NCBI GenBank assembly: GCA_012735195.1
Contig: JAAYIC010000097.1
Location: forward strand, 1 to 53,683
DNA: 53,683 bases
Direction: 5' to 3'
Source: Bacillota bacterium
GTDB taxonomy: Bacteria; Bacillota; UBA4882; UBA10575
Positions 24,631 to 31,746 of the stretch are shown in pieces. Numbering within the stretch: the stretch's first letter is position 1; each line of letters starts with the position of its first letter. The notes under the pieces are model-generated. The model was not told the DNA's origin and searched no databases. It saw nothing but the letters and a program-made list of their open reading frames with translations. The position numbers and the translations under genes are program-made.

Positions 24631-25710
24631 TTAACGCTTGACGCGGGCATTTCCCTCCCAGATACTCCAGACTTGCTCTTCATCGGCAGGCTGGATATAA
24701 TCGGTGAGGAAGGTGGTGGCCATGGCCCCGGTCGCCCAGGCAAACTGGACCCACTTCTCCGCTTCCCAACCCCTTAAGATGGCATAGAGTAATCCACCGA
24801 CAAAGGCATCGCCGCCCCCGATCCGGTCGAGCACAGTAATCGGCCGGGGTTCCACAATATGCCAGTTATCCCCTTCCGACAGAATGGCCCCCCAAAGGTG
24901 GCTGTTGACGCTGATGACCTCACGGAGGGTATTGGCAAAGACAGATGTGTGGGGGAAAGCCTTTTTCGCCCGGCCGATCATCTCCTTAAAGCTCTCAATC
25001 TTTGCGGCCAGATCCTTTCCGCCGGCTTCCGGTCCTTCCAAGCCCAAGGCCAGTTGGAAATCTTCTTCATTGCCGATGAGGATATCGGCGTTCCCGGCAA
25101 TCTCTGTAAAGACTTGGCGCAGTTCCTCCTCGCGATTCTCCCAGAAAGATGCCCGGTAGTTAAGATCAAAGGAGATCCGGGTCTCGTATTTCTTGGCGGC
25201 GCGCGCCAGTTCCAGGCAGAAAGTGCTGGTTTCCGGGGACAAAGCGGCGATCAGACCGGAGATGTGCACGATCTGCGCGCCTTCCTGCCCAAAAATCCGC
25301 TCAAGATCAAAATCTTTCACACTAAGGGTACGGCCGACTTCCCCCGCACGGTCATTATATACTCTGGGACCCCGGAGGCCGTAGCCGCTATCGGCGATAT
25401 TGAACTGATGGCGGTAACCCCAGGGACCCCCTTGCGGTACTTCCGGCCCCTCATACTCCATATTCCTGCTTCTCAGGTTGCTCTTGATCATTTGGGCAAT
25501 GGGGCTTCCTTTCACAAAAGTCGTCAAGACTTTAACCGGAAGACCAAGATAAGAAGAGACGCTGGCAACATTGGTTTCAGCGCTGGTAACGTGCATGAGG
25601 AAAGTATCACTGCAATGCACCGGCTGCCCATAAAGGGGAGTAATGCGCACCCCCATGCTGGTCGGAACAACCAGTGCGTATTTGGCATCTTTGCGTAGTT
25701 TTATCCCCAT
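24631..25710 (-). CDS. PfkB-family sugar kinase (2-keto-3-deoxygluconate kinase type)
   Basis: Ribokinase-fold kinase of 359 aa. The C-terminal PfkB signature DRIGGGDAFVGGLLYAIL begins near residue 295, with Asp301 the catalytic base and the GGGD anion hole. The N-terminal part, with TFLMHVTSAETNVASVSSYLG and the SFDLNYRASFWEN motif near residue 178, resembles KDG kinases, which phosphorylate 2-keto-3-deoxygluconate in uronate and pectin breakdown. No KDPG aldolase or uronate gene is adjacent, so the substrate is uncertain. It is divergent from the redox operon and followed by its own terminator. Confidence 0.8.
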   Translation of the reverse strand: MGIKLRKDAKYALVVPTSMGVRITPLYGQPVHCSDTFLMHVTSAETNVASVSSYLGLPVKVLTTFVKGSPIAQMIKSNLRSRNMEYEGPEVPQGGPWGYRHQFNIADSGYGLRGPRVYNDRAGEVGRTLSVKDFDLERIFGQEGAQIVHISGLIAALSPETSTFCLELARAAKKYETRISFDLNYRASFWENREEELRQVFTEIAGNADILIGNEEDFQLALGLEGPEAGGKDLAAKIESFKEMIGRAKKAFPHTSVFANTLREVISVNSHLWGAILSEGDNWHIVEPRPITVLDRIGGGDAFVGGLLYAILRGWEAEKWVQFAWATGAMATTFLTDYIQPADEEQVWSIWEGNARVKR

Positions 25711-25807
25711 GAAGAAATCCTCCTTCTCCGTTGTTCTTCATTAATGTGATGTTTTTCCTCTTATATCTTAATACATTTTCATTACAAAATCCATAGAAAA
25801 ACCGGAA

Positions 25808-25837
25808 TTGACAGGTTTCTCATTTTTCTGATATATT
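25808..25837 (+). promoter_or_regulatory. promoter of the redox operon
   Basis: Consensus -35 TTGACA (25808-25813) and -10 TATATT (25832-25837) with an 18-bp spacer lie about 125 nt before the histidine-kinase gene. No other promoter of this quality is seen before the end of the thioredoxin-reductase gene. Confidence 0.7.
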
Positions 25838-25962
25838 TAACATAAATAATATATTTAGCATTATAAGATTCATGAAGATGCCGGTGGCGACGAAGATCCT
25901 TTACAAGTTGACCGGAGGGTGGGATATGCTTGCGTCGCCCATCTTTTAGCAGGAGAAAAAAA

Positions 25963-27519
25963 GTGAGTAAAAAAAAGGCTCTTCCCCGGGCGGAGCGGTT
26001 GACGGTTGATGAATTTTTTCAGAGCCTCCCGGTGCCGGTTTTCCTCCTTAATGAGAACCGGCGTGTGGAAAAGATGACCCCTGCCGCCGCCGCTATTTTT
26101 TCCGGCTTTTCCACAGCAGCCGGCGGTGACGAATGCACCTTCGGCCGGGTGGTCAATTGTATCCACTCTTTGGATGATCCGCGGGGTTGCGGCCAGACTC
26201 CCTCTTGCGAAGAGTGCCCGGTAAGAGCAACCATTCTGGAGATTTACGCAACCGGCCAACCCTGCCGCCAAAAAGAGGTGAAACTGACACTCGGCCCGGA
26301 CGGGCACGATTGTTACCTGGTAATCTCCGCGGAACTGTTGGCCTTGCCTTCCGGCTGTAAAATTTTGTTGCATTTTGAGGATATCACCGCACGGAAAAAA
26401 GCCGAAGAAAAACTGGCGCTTACCAAAGACATCCTGGACAGGGCGCAAAAGGTGGCCCGTGTCGGCAGTTGGAACCTGGACCTTGCGACCAACATCATGC
26501 TTTGGACAGATGAGACTTACCGTATATTCGGGCTACAGCCGGGAACCCCGGTCAATTATGACCGGTTTCTGCAGAAAATTCATCCCGGAGACCGGGAGTA
26601 TGTCGAGAGGAAATGGCGGGCGGCGCTGGCGGGAAAGCCTTACGAAATCGAACACCGGATTATCGTCAACGGCCAGGTTAAATGGGTCCGAGAAAAGGCT
26701 GAAGTAGAAACGGACAAAAGAGGCAATCCGCTGCGGGCTATCGGTACGGTGCAGGATATCACCGTCTATAAACAGCAGGAGACGGATAAAGCCCGCCTGC
26801 AAAGGGAGTTGCTCCATGTCTCACGGGTAACGGCCATGGGTGAACTCACCGCCGCCCTGGCCCATGAATTGAACCAGCCGCTTATGGCGATCATGGGCAA
26901 TGTCCAGGCCGCCCAGAGGTTCTTAACCCCGGCCACCCATGGCCAAGACCCGGACTATGAGGAAATCCGGGAGATCCTTGCCGATGTGGTCGAAGACAGC
27001 AAACGTGCGGCTGAAACCATCCGGAAGATCCGGGTATATTTAAAGAAATCCTTGCATAAACCGGCCCCCCTGGATCTCAATACGGCTATCCGGGAGATTC
27101 TCCCCCTGATCCGGAGTAATGCGGTGATCAAGAATATTTCCTTAAAAATTGAGCTTGCTCCGGACCTGCCGCCGGTCAAGGGCGACCGGGTCCAGCTCCA
27201 ACAGGTCATCGTCAACCTGGTCCTCAACGGTTTTGAGGCCATGACCGGGGAAGGGGAGAAAGAACTGACCATCCGGACCGCCGGCGACGGGAAAACGGTT
27301 GCCGTCAGTGCAATAGATACCGGGACGGGAATTGCCGTGGATAACCCGGAAGACCTCTTTAGACCGTTCTTTACCACAAAAAATGCGGGCATGGGCATGG
27401 GGCTCGCCGTCAGCAAAAGCATTATTGAAGCGCATGGCGGGTCTTTAAAAGTGGAAAACAACCGCGGCGGGCCCGGGGCCGCCTTCTCTTTTATCCTGCC
27501 CGTCTATGAGGGGGATTAA
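25963..27519 (+). CDS. PAS sensor histidine kinase (FixL-like) with a cysteine-rich PAS
   Basis: Soluble kinase of about 518 aa with no membrane segment. I place the start at GTG 25963, 7 nt after AGGAG, not at the upstream TTG. Residues about 15-135 form a PAS domain containing the motif NCIHSLDDPRGCGQTPSCEEC; cysteines at 58, 66, 76, 82, 85 and 101 could bind an Fe-S cluster or metal. Residues about 150-270 are a PAS_3 fold (GSWNLDLATNIMLWTDETYRIFG, VQDITVYKQQE). The HisKA region has phosphoacceptor His301 in AHELNQPLMAIMGN, and the ATPase has N, G1 and G2 boxes (LFRPFFTTKNAGMGMGLAVSK). It feeds the FixJ-type regulator 4 nt downstream. Confidence 0.87.
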   Translation: MSKKKALPRAERLTVDEFFQSLPVPVFLLNENRRVEKMTPAAAAIFSGFSTAAGGDECTFGRVVNCIHSLDDPRGCGQTPSCEECPVRATILEIYATGQPCRQKEVKLTLGPDGHDCYLVISAELLALPSGCKILLHFEDITARKKAEEKLALTKDILDRAQKVARVGSWNLDLATNIMLWTDETYRIFGLQPGTPVNYDRFLQKIHPGDREYVERKWRAALAGKPYEIEHRIIVNGQVKWVREKAEVETDKRGNPLRAIGTVQDITVYKQQETDKARLQRELLHVSRVTAMGELTAALAHELNQPLMAIMGNVQAAQRFLTPATHGQDPDYEEIREILADVVEDSKRAAETIRKIRVYLKKSLHKPAPLDLNTAIREILPLIRSNAVIKNISLKIELAPDLPPVKGDRVQLQQVIVNLVLNGFEAMTGEGEKELTIRTAGDGKTVAVSAIDTGTGIAVDNPEDLFRPFFTTKNAGMGMGLAVSKSIIEAHGGSLKVENNRGGPGAAFSFILPVYEGD

Positions 27520-27523
27520 AGAT

Positions 27524-28150
27524 ATGCCGCCGGCAATCTTCATTGTTGACGATGACCCTTCGGTCCGTAAGAGTCTGGAGCGGTTACTCCGGGCGTCCGG
27601 ATATAAAACGCAGGCTTTCGCCTCGGCGGAAGATTTTTTGGCCTGCCGTCCTTGTCAAAACCCAAAGGAACCCGCCTGCCTGGTGCTGGATGTGCGGATG
27701 CCGGGGATCAGCGGGATCAACCTCCAGCAGGAACTGGTCAAGGCCGGGGTCATTTTGCCCATCGTTTTCATCTCCGGACACGGGAACATACCCATGAGTG
27801 TGCAGGCCATGAAGAACGGAGCAGTCGACTTTTTACCCAAACCCTTTGCCGAAGAGGAACTGCTGGCCGCGGTTGAACAGGCCCTCACTAAAGCCGCCCG
27901 CCTGCAAAAAGAGACGGTGGAGAAGGCGGAGATCCGCCGCCGGGTCAAGACCCTCACCCCGCGGGAATACGAGGTCTTCCGCTGGGTGATCACGGGAATG
28001 CTCAACAAAGAGATCGCCGCCGAACTCAAAGTCACAGAGAAGACCATCAAGGTCCACCGCGCCAGGGTGATGCAGAAGATGAAAGCCGCCTCCATCGCCG
28101 ATTTGGTCCGCCTGGCCGAAAAAATCGGTATCAGAAGTCCCCTCCGCTAA
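27524..28150 (+). CDS. FixJ-type response regulator (receiver plus LuxR HTH)
   Basis: Two-domain regulator of 208 aa from ATG 27524; an upstream frame to 27506 overlaps the kinase gene. The receiver (residues 1-125) has the acidic pair DDD near residue 10, phosphoacceptor Asp56 in CLVLDVRMPG, ISGHGNIPMSVQAMKNGAVDF and Lys of FLPKPF. The C-terminal LuxR/GerE HTH reads LTPREYEVFRWVITGMLNKEIAAELKVTEKTIKVHRARVMQKM near 143-187. The GHG...GAVDF stretch is the FixJ/NarL-like subclass that pairs with PAS kinases such as FixL. Its likely targets include its own operon, perhaps via the TTGGACC palindrome just downstream. Confidence 0.9.
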   Translation: MPPAIFIVDDDPSVRKSLERLLRASGYKTQAFASAEDFLACRPCQNPKEPACLVLDVRMPGISGINLQQELVKAGVILPIVFISGHGNIPMSVQAMKNGAVDFLPKPFAEEELLAAVEQALTKAARLQKETVEKAEIRRRVKTLTPREYEVFRWVITGMLNKEIAAELKVTEKTIKVHRARVMQKMKAASIADLVRLAEKIGIRSPLR

Positions 28151-28173: not shown

Positions 28174-28210
28174 TTTACAAGACCCTCTCCCCTTTGGTAT
28201 ATTTTTCTTG

Positions 28211-28606
28211 ATGAAAAGAGCAACAGTCAAACCCAAAATTTACTTGGTTGATGATGACAAGGCAGTACGTAAAGCCCTTAGTCGCCTGCTCAAAGCCGCC
28301 GGCTATGCGGGAGAAGCATTTGCGTCGGCTGAAGATTTTCTGGCGGTGCTCCCGGAGGTGAGCGACGGTGTCCTCCTCTTAGACCTGCGGATGCCGGGGA
28401 TCGACGGCTTTACACTGCAAAAAAAGTTGCAAACCCTCCGCCCGCAGCTGCCGGTGATTTTCATCACCGGCCACTCCCAGCCCGGCGACAGGGAGCGGGC
28501 ATTGGCCGCCGGAGCCAAGGGTTTTTTGACCAAACCTTTTGATGGTGAAATCCTTTTAAAGCTGTTGGAAGCAATAACCGGAAAAAATAAAAGAGAGGAG
28601 GGATAA
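28211..28606 (+). CDS. single-domain response regulator
   Basis: Stand-alone receiver domain of 131 aa with no output domain. Acidic residues DDD near 14-16, phosphoacceptor Asp58 in VLLLDLRMPGIDGF, Thr/Ser of FITGHSQPGDRE and Lys of GFLTKPFDGE are all in place. It is closely similar in pattern to the receiver of the preceding FixJ-type protein (EAFASAEDFLAVLPE), suggesting a duplication. It may act as a phosphate sink or divert phosphate from the shared kinase, or act through protein contacts. It ends 2 nt before the superoxide-reductase gene. Confidence 0.88.
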   Translation: MKRATVKPKIYLVDDDKAVRKALSRLLKAAGYAGEAFASAEDFLAVLPEVSDGVLLLDLRMPGIDGFTLQKKLQTLRPQLPVIFITGHSQPGDRERALAAGAKGFLTKPFDGEILLKLLEAITGKNKREEG

Positions 28607-28608
28607 GA

Positions 28609-28992
28609 GTGGAAAGGCGGTGGACCTGTGAAGACGATATTTTATGCGGTATCAACACCCCAAAAGACTGGGAAAACCTTACAGACCTTGAGAAGAAACA
28701 CGTGCCGGTGATCGAAGCACCAGACCGCGTTAAAAAGGACGAGCCGTTCACTGTAAAAGTAATGGTTGGCAAGTTACTGGCTCATCCCAACGAACCGGCC
28801 CACTTCATAGAATGGATTGATCTTTATTGCGGCGATACCTATCTGGGCCGGGCAGCTTTCAGTGCCGGGATGAGCTACCCGGAAGCCGTCTTTATTGTCA
28901 AACTCTCCCATGCCCACGGGCCGCTCAGGGCACGGGAGAAATGCAACCTCCACGGTCTCTGGGAAGTAAGCAAACCGATTGAGATCGAATAA
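28609..28992 (+). CDS. superoxide reductase (neelaredoxin/desulfoferrodoxin class II)
   Basis: Non-haem iron enzyme reducing superoxide to hydrogen peroxide without making oxygen, 127 aa, cytosolic, GTG start. The Fe(His)4Cys centre is fully readable: His31 in EKKHVPVIE (with the catalytic Lys), His59 and His65 in LLAHPNEPAHFIEWI, Cys112 and His115 in KCNLHGLWE. The N-terminal desulforedoxin domain of class I enzymes is absent, but a separate desulforedoxin gene lies 2.8 kb downstream in the same operon. It overlaps almost directly with the receiver gene, tying it to the two-component system. Electron supply probably comes from the rubredoxin-like protein. Confidence 0.93.
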   Translation: MERRWTCEDDILCGINTPKDWENLTDLEKKHVPVIEAPDRVKKDEPFTVKVMVGKLLAHPNEPAHFIEWIDLYCGDTYLGRAAFSAGMSYPEAVFIVKLSHAHGPLRAREKCNLHGLWEVSKPIEIE

Positions 28993-29122
28993 GCCATACC
29001 ATTGGCAAACCAAGCGAAGGCGGCCGGGACAAAAAACCGGAAAAGCAGGCGCATCTCTGAGCGGACTGCAGTTGCATACAGAGATACGCGGTACGAAAAA
29101 TAAGGGATTCTGTGAGGTGCTG

Positions 29123-30847
29123 ATGATGAAAGAAACACCGACCAAAGGTGGACCCGATACTTTATCTGTCCTGGTGGGGGGGAAGGCCGGCGCCGGGGTT
29201 GATCGTTCCGGTACGATTCTGGGGAAGCTCCTGAACCGGTTGGGTTACCGGACTTTTATCCACCGGGATTATCCCTCGATCATCAGGGGCGGCCATACCT
29301 TCTCCATAATCAGAGCGGCTAAAGACCGGATCGCCGCCCACCGGGAAGAGGTCGATGTCATCCTGGCGCTGGACCGGGAGACCTTCACCCTCCATCAGCA
29401 CCGGCTGAAAGAAGAGGGCATTTGTCTTTGCGATGCCCGGGAAAAAACGGTCCTTCCCCATCCCCGGGCTTTTGGAATCCCCCTGGCCGAGATTTTACGC
29501 GAGGAGAAAGCCCCAGCCGTCATGACTAACACCTGTATGATCGGGGCATTTGCCAAAACCATCGGGATCGACTTTACTCTATTGGAAACAATCTTGCGGC
29601 AGGAACTCCGTAAAGAAACGGAGCTCAATGTGAAAGTTGCGAAACGTGGTTATGAAACAGTGAAAGAAGTGCTAACCATCGAACCTTTGCGCCAGGAGAT
29701 CCTGCCGCTTATTACCGGCAACCAGGCAATCGCCCTCGGGCTGGTCAAGGGTGGTTTGGACGCATATGTCTCTTATCCGATGACCCCGACCACCCCGATC
29801 TTGCATTATCTTGCCGGTGTAAGCGGGGATTTTGGATTGGATATCCTTCACCTGGAAAATGAGATCAGCGTGATCTTGACCGCCCTGGGATATGCCTACG
29901 CCGGGAAAAGGGCGGCTGTTGGTACTTCCGGCGGTGGTTTTTGCCTGATGACCGAAGGTCTGAGCCTGGCTGGGATGGCCGAATTACCAATCCTGATTGT
30001 CATGGGGCAAAGGCCCGGACCTTCCACCGGCCTTCCTACCTATTCGGCGCAAACAGAACTCCTTTTTGCCTTGCATGCAGGTCAGGGCGAGTTCCCCCGT
30101 TTTCTGGCGGCGCCGGGAGATGCGGAAGAAGCCTATTACTGGTCGGCGTTGGGCTTGAGGATCAGCTGGGAGTTCCAGATCCCCGCCATCATCCTCTCCG
30201 ACAAGGATCTGGGAGAGAGTTTCTATAATTTTGACCGGGGGCTGGCAGGGGATCCGGAAGCCTTAAACCTGCTACCGGAGAAGGAAGGCCGGAATTCCAG
30301 CGCGAATACCGGCCAAGACCTTCCTTACCGGCGGTATACCCTGACCGGGGCAGGTATTTCGCCTTTGGCCTTTCCCCCACTTGCCGGCGGCATTATCAAA
30401 GTCAACAGCTATGAACATGATGAAGCAGGGATCACCACGGAGGATCCCCGCCAGACAATGGTGATGCAGGAAAAACGCCTGCGCAAGGCAGAGTATTTGG
30501 CCCGGGCCCTGGAGGCGGTAAAAACGGTAAATACTTATGAAGGCGAGAATCAGGAGATGGCCCTCCTTTGCTGGGGCTCCAACAAAGGTCCTTGTTTTGA
30601 GGTGGGACGGCGGCTGGGGCTCAAAGTGATTCAACCGGTTGTCCTCAACCCCTTCCCAACCCGCCAGTTTCAACAGGCCCTCACCGGGGTGAAGAAACTC
30701 ATCACCGTAGAGAACAATGCCACTGCCCAGCTTGGCAGGTTAATCAGGAATTACGGTTTCCAGGCCTGCGGGCAGATCCTGAAAACAGACGGGCGGCCGT
30801 TTAGCCTTGAAGAATTAGAGGAAAAAGTAAAGGGGGCGATAGCATGA
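29123..30847 (+). CDS. 2-oxoacid:ferredoxin oxidoreductase, gamma-alpha fusion subunit
   Basis: Alpha subunit with an N-terminal gamma domain, about 574 aa from ATG 29123 (or 29126; GAGGTG precedes); the frame to 28979 is not credible. The gamma domain covers residues 10-195 (LVGGKAGAGVDRSGTILGKLLN, YPSIIRGGHTFSII). The alpha TPP-binding and pyrimidine domain follows (GNQAIALGLVKGGLDAYVSYPMTPTTPILHYLA, GTSGGGFCLMTEGLSLAGMAELPILIVMGQRPGPSTGLPT) plus a C-terminal domain. The two-gene layout matches KorAB and similar enzymes that oxidatively decarboxylate 2-oxoglutarate or branched oxoacids; the substrate is not determined. Its 3' end overlaps the beta gene by 4 nt. Confidence 0.88.
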   Translation: MMKETPTKGGPDTLSVLVGGKAGAGVDRSGTILGKLLNRLGYRTFIHRDYPSIIRGGHTFSIIRAAKDRIAAHREEVDVILALDRETFTLHQHRLKEEGICLCDAREKTVLPHPRAFGIPLAEILREEKAPAVMTNTCMIGAFAKTIGIDFTLLETILRQELRKETELNVKVAKRGYETVKEVLTIEPLRQEILPLITGNQAIALGLVKGGLDAYVSYPMTPTTPILHYLAGVSGDFGLDILHLENEISVILTALGYAYAGKRAAVGTSGGGFCLMTEGLSLAGMAELPILIVMGQRPGPSTGLPTYSAQTELLFALHAGQGEFPRFLAAPGDAEEAYYWSALGLRISWEFQIPAIILSDKDLGESFYNFDRGLAGDPEALNLLPEKEGRNSSANTGQDLPYRRYTLTGAGISPLAFPPLAGGIIKVNSYEHDEAGITTEDPRQTMVMQEKRLRKAEYLARALEAVKTVNTYEGENQEMALLCWGSNKGPCFEVGRRLGLKVIQPVVLNPFPTRQFQQALTGVKKLITVENNATAQLGRLIRNYGFQACGQILKTDGRPFSLEELEEKVKGAIA

Positions 30848-31746
30848 CCGCCCACAATTTTGAAACCTCTGTGCTGAATACCTGGTGTCCGGGGTGTGGG
30901 AACTTTCCTCTCCTAAACACCGTAAAAACAGTCCTGCAGGAGCTCGGTGAAGGAGAATCACCCACGCGTCCTGAAAACCTGGTTTTGGTTGCCGGGATTG
31001 GCTGTCACGGCAAGATCGTTGATTACCTTAACCTCAACAGTTTTTACAGTATCCACGGGCGGGTGCTCCCGGTCGCCACCGGGATCAAACTGGCCAATCC
31101 GGACCTGGAAGTCATCGGCTTCGCGGGCGACGGCGACGCCTATGGTGAAGGCCTGGAACACCTGATTTATGCGGCCAAAAGAAATATTGACATCACTGTT
31201 ATCATCCATAACAACCGGGTCTACAGCCTTACCACCGGCCAGTTTTCGCCCACCTCGCCGCTGGGTTTTCCGGGGCGTTCCACTCCGGCGGGAAGCCCGG
31301 AACCGCCCCTGAACCCGCTGGAACTTCTATTGGCCGGCGGCGCGACCTTTCTCGCCCGGGGGTTTTCATCCGAACCGGAACAGATGAAGCAAATCTTCAG
31401 GGAAGCCATAGACCACCGGGGTTTTGCTTTAGTCGATATTCTCCAGGTCTGTGTCACCTTTAATAATCTCCACAAGTACTACGCAGAACGGGTCTATACA
31501 GTGACAGACCACGACCCGGCCGACTATCTCCAGGCCCTTAATAAGATCAAGGAATGGGATTATGGCGCCGGAACCGGCGGCGCCGGTTCCGGGGAAGAAA
31601 AGGAGAGAATCCCCCTGGGAATCCTTTACAAGAGAGAGGCCCCCACCTTTGACCGGAGGTTATCACCGGGCGGCGGGAGGAGCCGGGCTGCCACTCAGGA
31701 GCACCGGGAAGCGCTTATTGAAAAAATCCTGGCAAACAGTAAATAA
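30844..31746 (+). CDS. 2-oxoacid:ferredoxin oxidoreductase, beta subunit
   Basis: Beta subunit of 300 aa that binds thiamine pyrophosphate and a [4Fe-4S] cluster. Cluster cysteines Cys15 and Cys18 lie in TWCPGCGN, Cys54 in GIGCHGK and Cys203 in LQVCVTFNN. The TPP motif is GDGDAYGEGLEHLIYAAKRNIDITVIIHNN near residues 96-124, followed by TTGQFSPTSPLG. The C-terminus is unusually Gly-rich (GAGTGGAGSGEE near 230-245). With the fused alpha-gamma protein it transfers electrons from an oxoacid to ferredoxin or directly to another carrier; no delta (2[4Fe-4S]) subunit is encoded here. Confidence 0.9.
   Translation: MTAHNFETSVLNTWCPGCGNFPLLNTVKTVLQELGEGESPTRPENLVLVAGIGCHGKIVDYLNLNSFYSIHGRVLPVATGIKLANPDLEVIGFAGDGDAYGEGLEHLIYAAKRNIDITVIIHNNRVYSLTTGQFSPTSPLGFPGRSTPAGSPEPPLNPLELLLAGGATFLARGFSSEPEQMKQIFREAIDHRGFALVDILQVCVTFNNLHKYYAERVYTVTDHDPADYLQALNKIKEWDYGAGTGGAGSGEEKERIPLGILYKREAPTFDRRLSPGGGRSRAATQEHREALIEKILANSK

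Follow-up and report, generated by a model that had tools for sequence, protein, structure and literature searches.

The main finding is a soluble sensor histidine kinase whose N-terminal PAS domain (PAS1) holds four cysteines, C66, C76, C82, and C85, which, together with one glycine, are the only invariant columns in a 31-row PAS1 alignment spanning 18–88% identity. The kinase is probably a sensor of oxygen or redox state, in which these four residues would hold a metal centre, most likely an oxygen-labile [4Fe-4S] cluster. The gene lies in the window, i.e., the whole stretch of DNA analysed here (53,683 nucleotides; contig JAAYIC010000097.1 of the Bacillota assembly GCA_012735195.1). The PAS fold (as a model), the four invariant cysteines, the intact kinase and regulators, and a recurring gene order are observed; we infer the metal bound, the cluster type, the signal, the direction in which the kinase switches, and the target genes. 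The four-cysteine PAS appears to be unstudied and to recur in many mostly anaerobic bacterial groups.

The kinase and its cysteines

The kinase gene comprises the following features.

25963–27519, plus strand: soluble sensor histidine kinase, 519 aa, GTG start, arranged as PAS1 (Cys4), PAS2 (PAS_3), HisKA, and HATPase_c (Pfam/NCBIfam)
25993–26402, plus strand: PAS1, the N-terminal four-cysteine PAS (AF2 model, Foldseek, 31-row alignment)
26134–26136, plus strand: C58, variable, cysteine in 3 of 31 rows (31-row alignment)
26158–26217, plus strand: Cys4 motif C66-x9-C76-x5-C82-x2-C85, in 31 of 31 homologues and in 99 of 101 domains with the Cys-masked profile
26263–26265, plus strand: C101, variable, cysteine in 4 of 31 rows (31-row alignment)
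26455–26760, plus strand: PAS2, PAS_3 type, without the cysteine cluster (Pfam, solved-structure comparison)
26836–27504, plus strand: HisKA and HATPase_c kinase core, FixL-like (Pfam/NCBIfam)

The GTG start at 25963 is sound because the relatives L009 and L010 begin at the same point. A divergent promoter region (25711–25962) separates the kinase from a PfkB-family sugar kinase gene on the minus strand (24631–25710). The HisKA phospho-acceptor sits in ALAHELNQPL, and the kinase core aligns with FixL over residues 261–515. Among solved structures, those closest to PAS2 include a LOV kinase PAS and a two-PAS FixL, the latter matched over its residues 26–134. However, the kinase scores 258 bits against the FixL equivalog cut-off of 850, and its N-terminus carries the Cys4 PAS, with no haem PAS identified.

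Translation from the GTG places cysteines at residues 58, 66, 76, 82, 85, and 101, and also at 117 and 132; the first six, spanning 26134–26265, lie where the preliminary description had put them. Cysteine makes up 0.81% of the window's long open reading frames, giving a probability of 1.5e-6 for at least six within 44 residues, and the kinase alone among these frames reaches at least five, so that the cluster exceeds chance. The residues of the earlier pattern, NC-x9-GCG-x4-C-x2-C, are correct, while its first gap becomes NC-x8-GCG-x4-C-x2-C, the x9 being the distance from C66 to C76 with the glycine included. The proposal of a metal-site-like cluster, for which conservation among homologues was now checked, stands for C66, C76, C82, and C85 and falls for C58 and C101. 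As the latter two vary while the other four are invariant, the meaningful set is four cysteines, and a site of six is rejected.

The x9-x5-x2 spacing is found in 27 of the 31 rows, the first gap being x7 or x8 in the other four. A cysteine-rich profile favours cysteine-bearing matches; hence, the four columns were hidden in a masked profile. Among the 101 distinct domains found with it, 99 keep C-x(7-11)-C-x5-C-x2-C with constant x5 and x2 gaps, which counters profile circularity as the source of the conservation, although most of these domains come from loci retrieved by means of the unmasked profile. The cleanest control is therefore the masked rescan, which covered the window's phylum. In that rescan, the matches read down to 1.4e-10 are four-cysteine PAS domains except for G047, G334, and G187, the last of which is a truncated frame; the weaker matches, of those read, are ordinary PAS fragments. 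The rare relatives L103 (G047) and L106 (G334) have three cysteines each and are naturally occurring variants on which the putative metal site could be probed.

This conservation bears on a metal-free thiol switch, in which two cysteine pairs would form disulfides upon oxidation and thereby change kinase activity. Such a switch would suit the redox neighbourhood of the kinase, and cysteine-based kinase switches are known, ArcB and SrrB among them (PMC8534201). However, one or two cysteines would suffice for this purpose, and single cysteines should then come and go more often among homologues; instead, the four occur as a set with constant x5 and x2 gaps, and one is lost in only 2 of 101 domains. 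We regard a thiol switch as quite improbable.

Fold of PAS1 and the candidate metal site

No Pfam PAS model scores PAS1 above its cut-off. In its AlphaFold model (five sequences; pLDDT 77, pTM 0.71), with secondary structure E-E-H-H-H-E-E-E, PAS1 is a PAS fold, with a five-stranded sheet and helices between strands 2 and 3. Foldseek places the model with LOV and haem PAS domains, such as DosP and PpSB1-LOV (E about 1e-5, TM about 0.5), so that the earlier assignment of a PAS domain to the kinase is borne out by model and structural comparison. PAS1 differs from these domains in sequence, with 11–17% identity, and in its four-cysteine loop, with no haem or flavin signature identified. In the PAS1 F helix (RATILEIYATG), read by itself, no candidate haem-ligand histidine is evident.

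The model is weak around the cysteine loop (pLDDT 44 for residues 41–50 and 59 for residues 61–70). In it, one helix has C66 close to its end, the loop carries C76 and C82, and C85 directly precedes the F helix. In a profile search of solved structures, PAS chains are matched mainly in the end segments of PAS1 (about 2–45 and 91–132), no solved PAS chain aligns across the cysteine segment, and no solved structure carrying the Cys4 motif was found. The four putative ligands are set on a helix–loop segment that runs up to the F helix, a region in which haem or flavin is bound by other PAS domains.

That some metal occupies the four cysteines is highly probable. An iron-sulfur centre is the identity that we favour, with somewhat better than even chances, and zinc is rather unlikely; a C-x9-C-x5-C-x2-C spacing does not by itself identify an iron-sulfur site.

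Relation to NreB and distribution of the four-cysteine PAS

To our knowledge, iron-sulfur PAS sensors are known essentially from NreB, whose cysteines are arranged as C-x2-C-x11-C-x2-C. The kinship with NreB suggested in the preliminary description receives no support from the C-x9-C-x5-C-x2-C spacing of the kinase, the feature compared. The window kinase further differs in its FixL-like core, in its second PAS, and in adjoining a superoxide reductase gene, whereas NreB is tied to nitrate respiration. The two share a soluble kinase, an N-terminal four-cysteine PAS, a two-component regulator partner, and a plausible anaerobic or oxygen switch; on the favoured reading, the window kinase would work like NreB, but no relationship is claimed. 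In Staphylococcus, NreB/NreC comprises an oxygen-sensing kinase with a [4Fe-4S] PAS (PMC4601167, PMC8774646). A large 2023 survey of PAS domains mentions just nine that carry a putative Fe-S cysteine motif, in its cluster 3 (PMC10468136). Our literature search, mostly outside subscription journals, found no paper that names the Cys4 PAS motif, so that a description in those journals is possible.

A genome scan for relatives of the kinase returned two near ones (83–84%), one from Omnitrophota (54%), and one from Bacteroidales (31%). With a profile built from those relatives, 41 four-cysteine PAS domains were found in 40 of 398 genomes (~10%) of the window's phylum. Elsewhere, the four-cysteine PAS is present in 46 of 198 genomes (23%) of the Deltaproteobacteria phylum, in 18 of 198 (9%) of the Bacteroidales phylum, and, with a narrower profile and stricter cut-off, in 12 of 193 (6%) of Omnitrophota; in the Neptuniibacter phylum it is far rarer than in the Deltaproteobacteria phylum (2 of 200, 1%). 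No more than about 21 candidates were scored in any genome of the phylum scans. With phylum taken as a proxy for lifestyle, this bias suggests an anaerobe-linked function. On plasmids, the single match was a weak one to a GGDEF protein of Ilyobacter, and a search with a hand-made motif consensus gave no match.

The four-cysteine PAS is attached to histidine kinases, GGDEF proteins with and without HD, sigma-54 activators, and SpoIIE phosphatases, and also occurs in stand-alone proteins of ~205 aa; so many output modules are as expected of a sensor input. The loci L024, L025, L027, L028, L031, L057, L065, L076, and L078 encode mostly stand-alone proteins of about 200–240 aa (the L057 frame has 321), which combine the four-cysteine PAS with a C-terminal CxxC...CxxC knuckle. 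In one stand-alone protein, scanned in full, Pfam matched nothing and an output domain was not evident. In addition, the Omnitrophota kinase of L011 (6001–7905) contains an extra PAS with another cysteine set (KRCFEYLFGRSEPCQPCP), three cysteines in all, which is absent from the window kinase.

The knuckle of the stand-alone relatives resembles a zinc ribbon and so lends some weight to zinc, which in this case would only stabilise the PAS loop as a zinc knuckle, the signal being something else, e.g., a small molecule bound in the PAS cavity. Four cysteines with a CxxC are equally compatible with zinc, and a precedent exists in WalK, a zinc-binding PAS kinase (PMC6624279, PMC8534201). The rarity in the Neptuniibacter phylum and the superoxide reductase, ferritin-like, hemerythrin, and rubredoxin-like neighbours described below point instead to oxygen chemistry, though both are compatible with zinc. 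A structural zinc site keeps a minor share of the probability, and the oxygen-labile iron-sulfur centre remains the preferred reading.

In the PAS1 tree, the window's genus, L011, and G771 form one clade (99/93) with L011 inside it, and G746 lies elsewhere. Within the window's family, a close full-length kinase occurs in the window's genus only (three genomes), and the closest relatives outside the genus are from Omnitrophota. Judging from these sequences, transfer of the kinase between phyla is possible.

The superoxide reductase neighbourhood and the proposed signalling route

Downstream of the kinase, the window contains, in order, the following genes.

27506–28150, plus strand: FixJ-like response regulator, receiver and LuxR HTH (PF00072, PF00196; NF006900 FixJ 217 bits against a cut-off of 255)
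28208–28606, plus strand: lone receiver without an output domain (PF00072; same place in L011 and G771)
28609–28992, plus strand: desulfoferrodoxin/neelaredoxin-type superoxide reductase (PF01880 105 bits against 22.2; TIGR00332 82 against 61.9 bits)
29123–30847, plus strand: 2-oxoacid:ferredoxin oxidoreductase, fused POR and POR_N (Pfam; 37% identical to the G746 copy)
30844–31746, plus strand: 2-oxoacid:ferredoxin oxidoreductase beta subunit (40% identical to the G746 copy)

The true start of the regulator may be the ATG at 27524. Its protein matches FixJ over nearly its full length but scores below the equivalog cut-off, and is hence called FixJ-like, not FixJ. The fused POR and POR_N protein would start at 29123, inside the reading frame 28979–30847.

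The superoxide reductase gene begins 2 bases past the lone receiver, and also lies downstream of the kinase in the two other species of the genus (three species in total). In G771 of Omnitrophota, the order is kinase, regulator, receiver, second receiver, superoxide reductase, ferritin-like, and hemerythrin, with identities to the window proteins of 52% for the kinase, 60% for the regulator, 52% for the receiver, and 70% for the superoxide reductase. In L011, the kinase–regulator–receiver trio is followed by a rubredoxin-like gene. In G746, a receiver, a superoxide reductase, a ferritin-like gene, and an oxidoreductase pair lie near a four-cysteine kinase. The oxidoreductase pair is thus found near a superoxide reductase both in the window (28979–31746) and in G746 (L094, 84–2698), which belong to different phyla, at 37–40% identity.

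When the fetched stretches, up to roughly 10 kb on each side, were scanned, a superoxide reductase was found at 4 of the 67 four-cysteine PAS loci outside the window, two of the four being from the window's genus; with the window itself, the adjacency occurs at five loci in three lineages, and about 60 other loci have no superoxide reductase in the fetched stretch. The gene is present in 53 of 74 carrier genomes. Taking ~0.9 superoxide reductase genes per genome, a genome size of around 3 Mb, and roughly 20 kb at each locus, we estimate that chance would place the gene beside ~0.4 loci. The excess is suggestive, the comparison having been made after the window was seen. Because the adjacency is confined to three lineages, we reject a general partnership between superoxide reductase and the four-cysteine PAS.

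Since most four-cysteine PAS loci lie away from a superoxide reductase, the general signal of the domain need not be oxygen; it might be NO, sulfide, a metal ion, or the cell's iron-sulfur supply, with the superoxide reductase nearby but not a target. Against this stand the trio and superoxide reductase in the same order in two phyla and the receiver and superoxide reductase beside the more distant four-cysteine kinase of G746, and we give such a signal little credence. In the favoured reading, with an oxygen-labile centre in PAS1, the superoxide reductase is a likely target of the kinase and regulator. Oxygen or reactive oxygen would cause the cluster to be lost or oxidised, changing the state of PAS1–PAS2 and with it the kinase activity, on which the phosphorylation level of the FixJ-like regulator would depend; the lone receiver may serve as a sink or relay for phosphate. 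The regulator would likely control its own operon, including the superoxide reductase and the 2-oxoacid:ferredoxin oxidoreductase. Because sensor, regulator, and superoxide reductase lie together, the window operon is a directly testable case.

More tentatively, and at slightly less than even chances, the four-cysteine PAS could constitute a widespread, undescribed class of iron-sulfur sensor, chiefly of anaerobes, which evolved apart from NreB, serves kinases, cyclases, sigma-54 activators, and phosphatases, and controls superoxide reductase in the window lineage and in Omnitrophota. If true, this would be a second cysteine arrangement for such sensors, one that hardly varies among the five phyla sampled or between the many output types, and a common but overlooked route by which anaerobes sense oxygen or redox state. 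In the window lineage and in Omnitrophota, it would amount to a two-component response of strict anaerobes to oxygen or superoxide.
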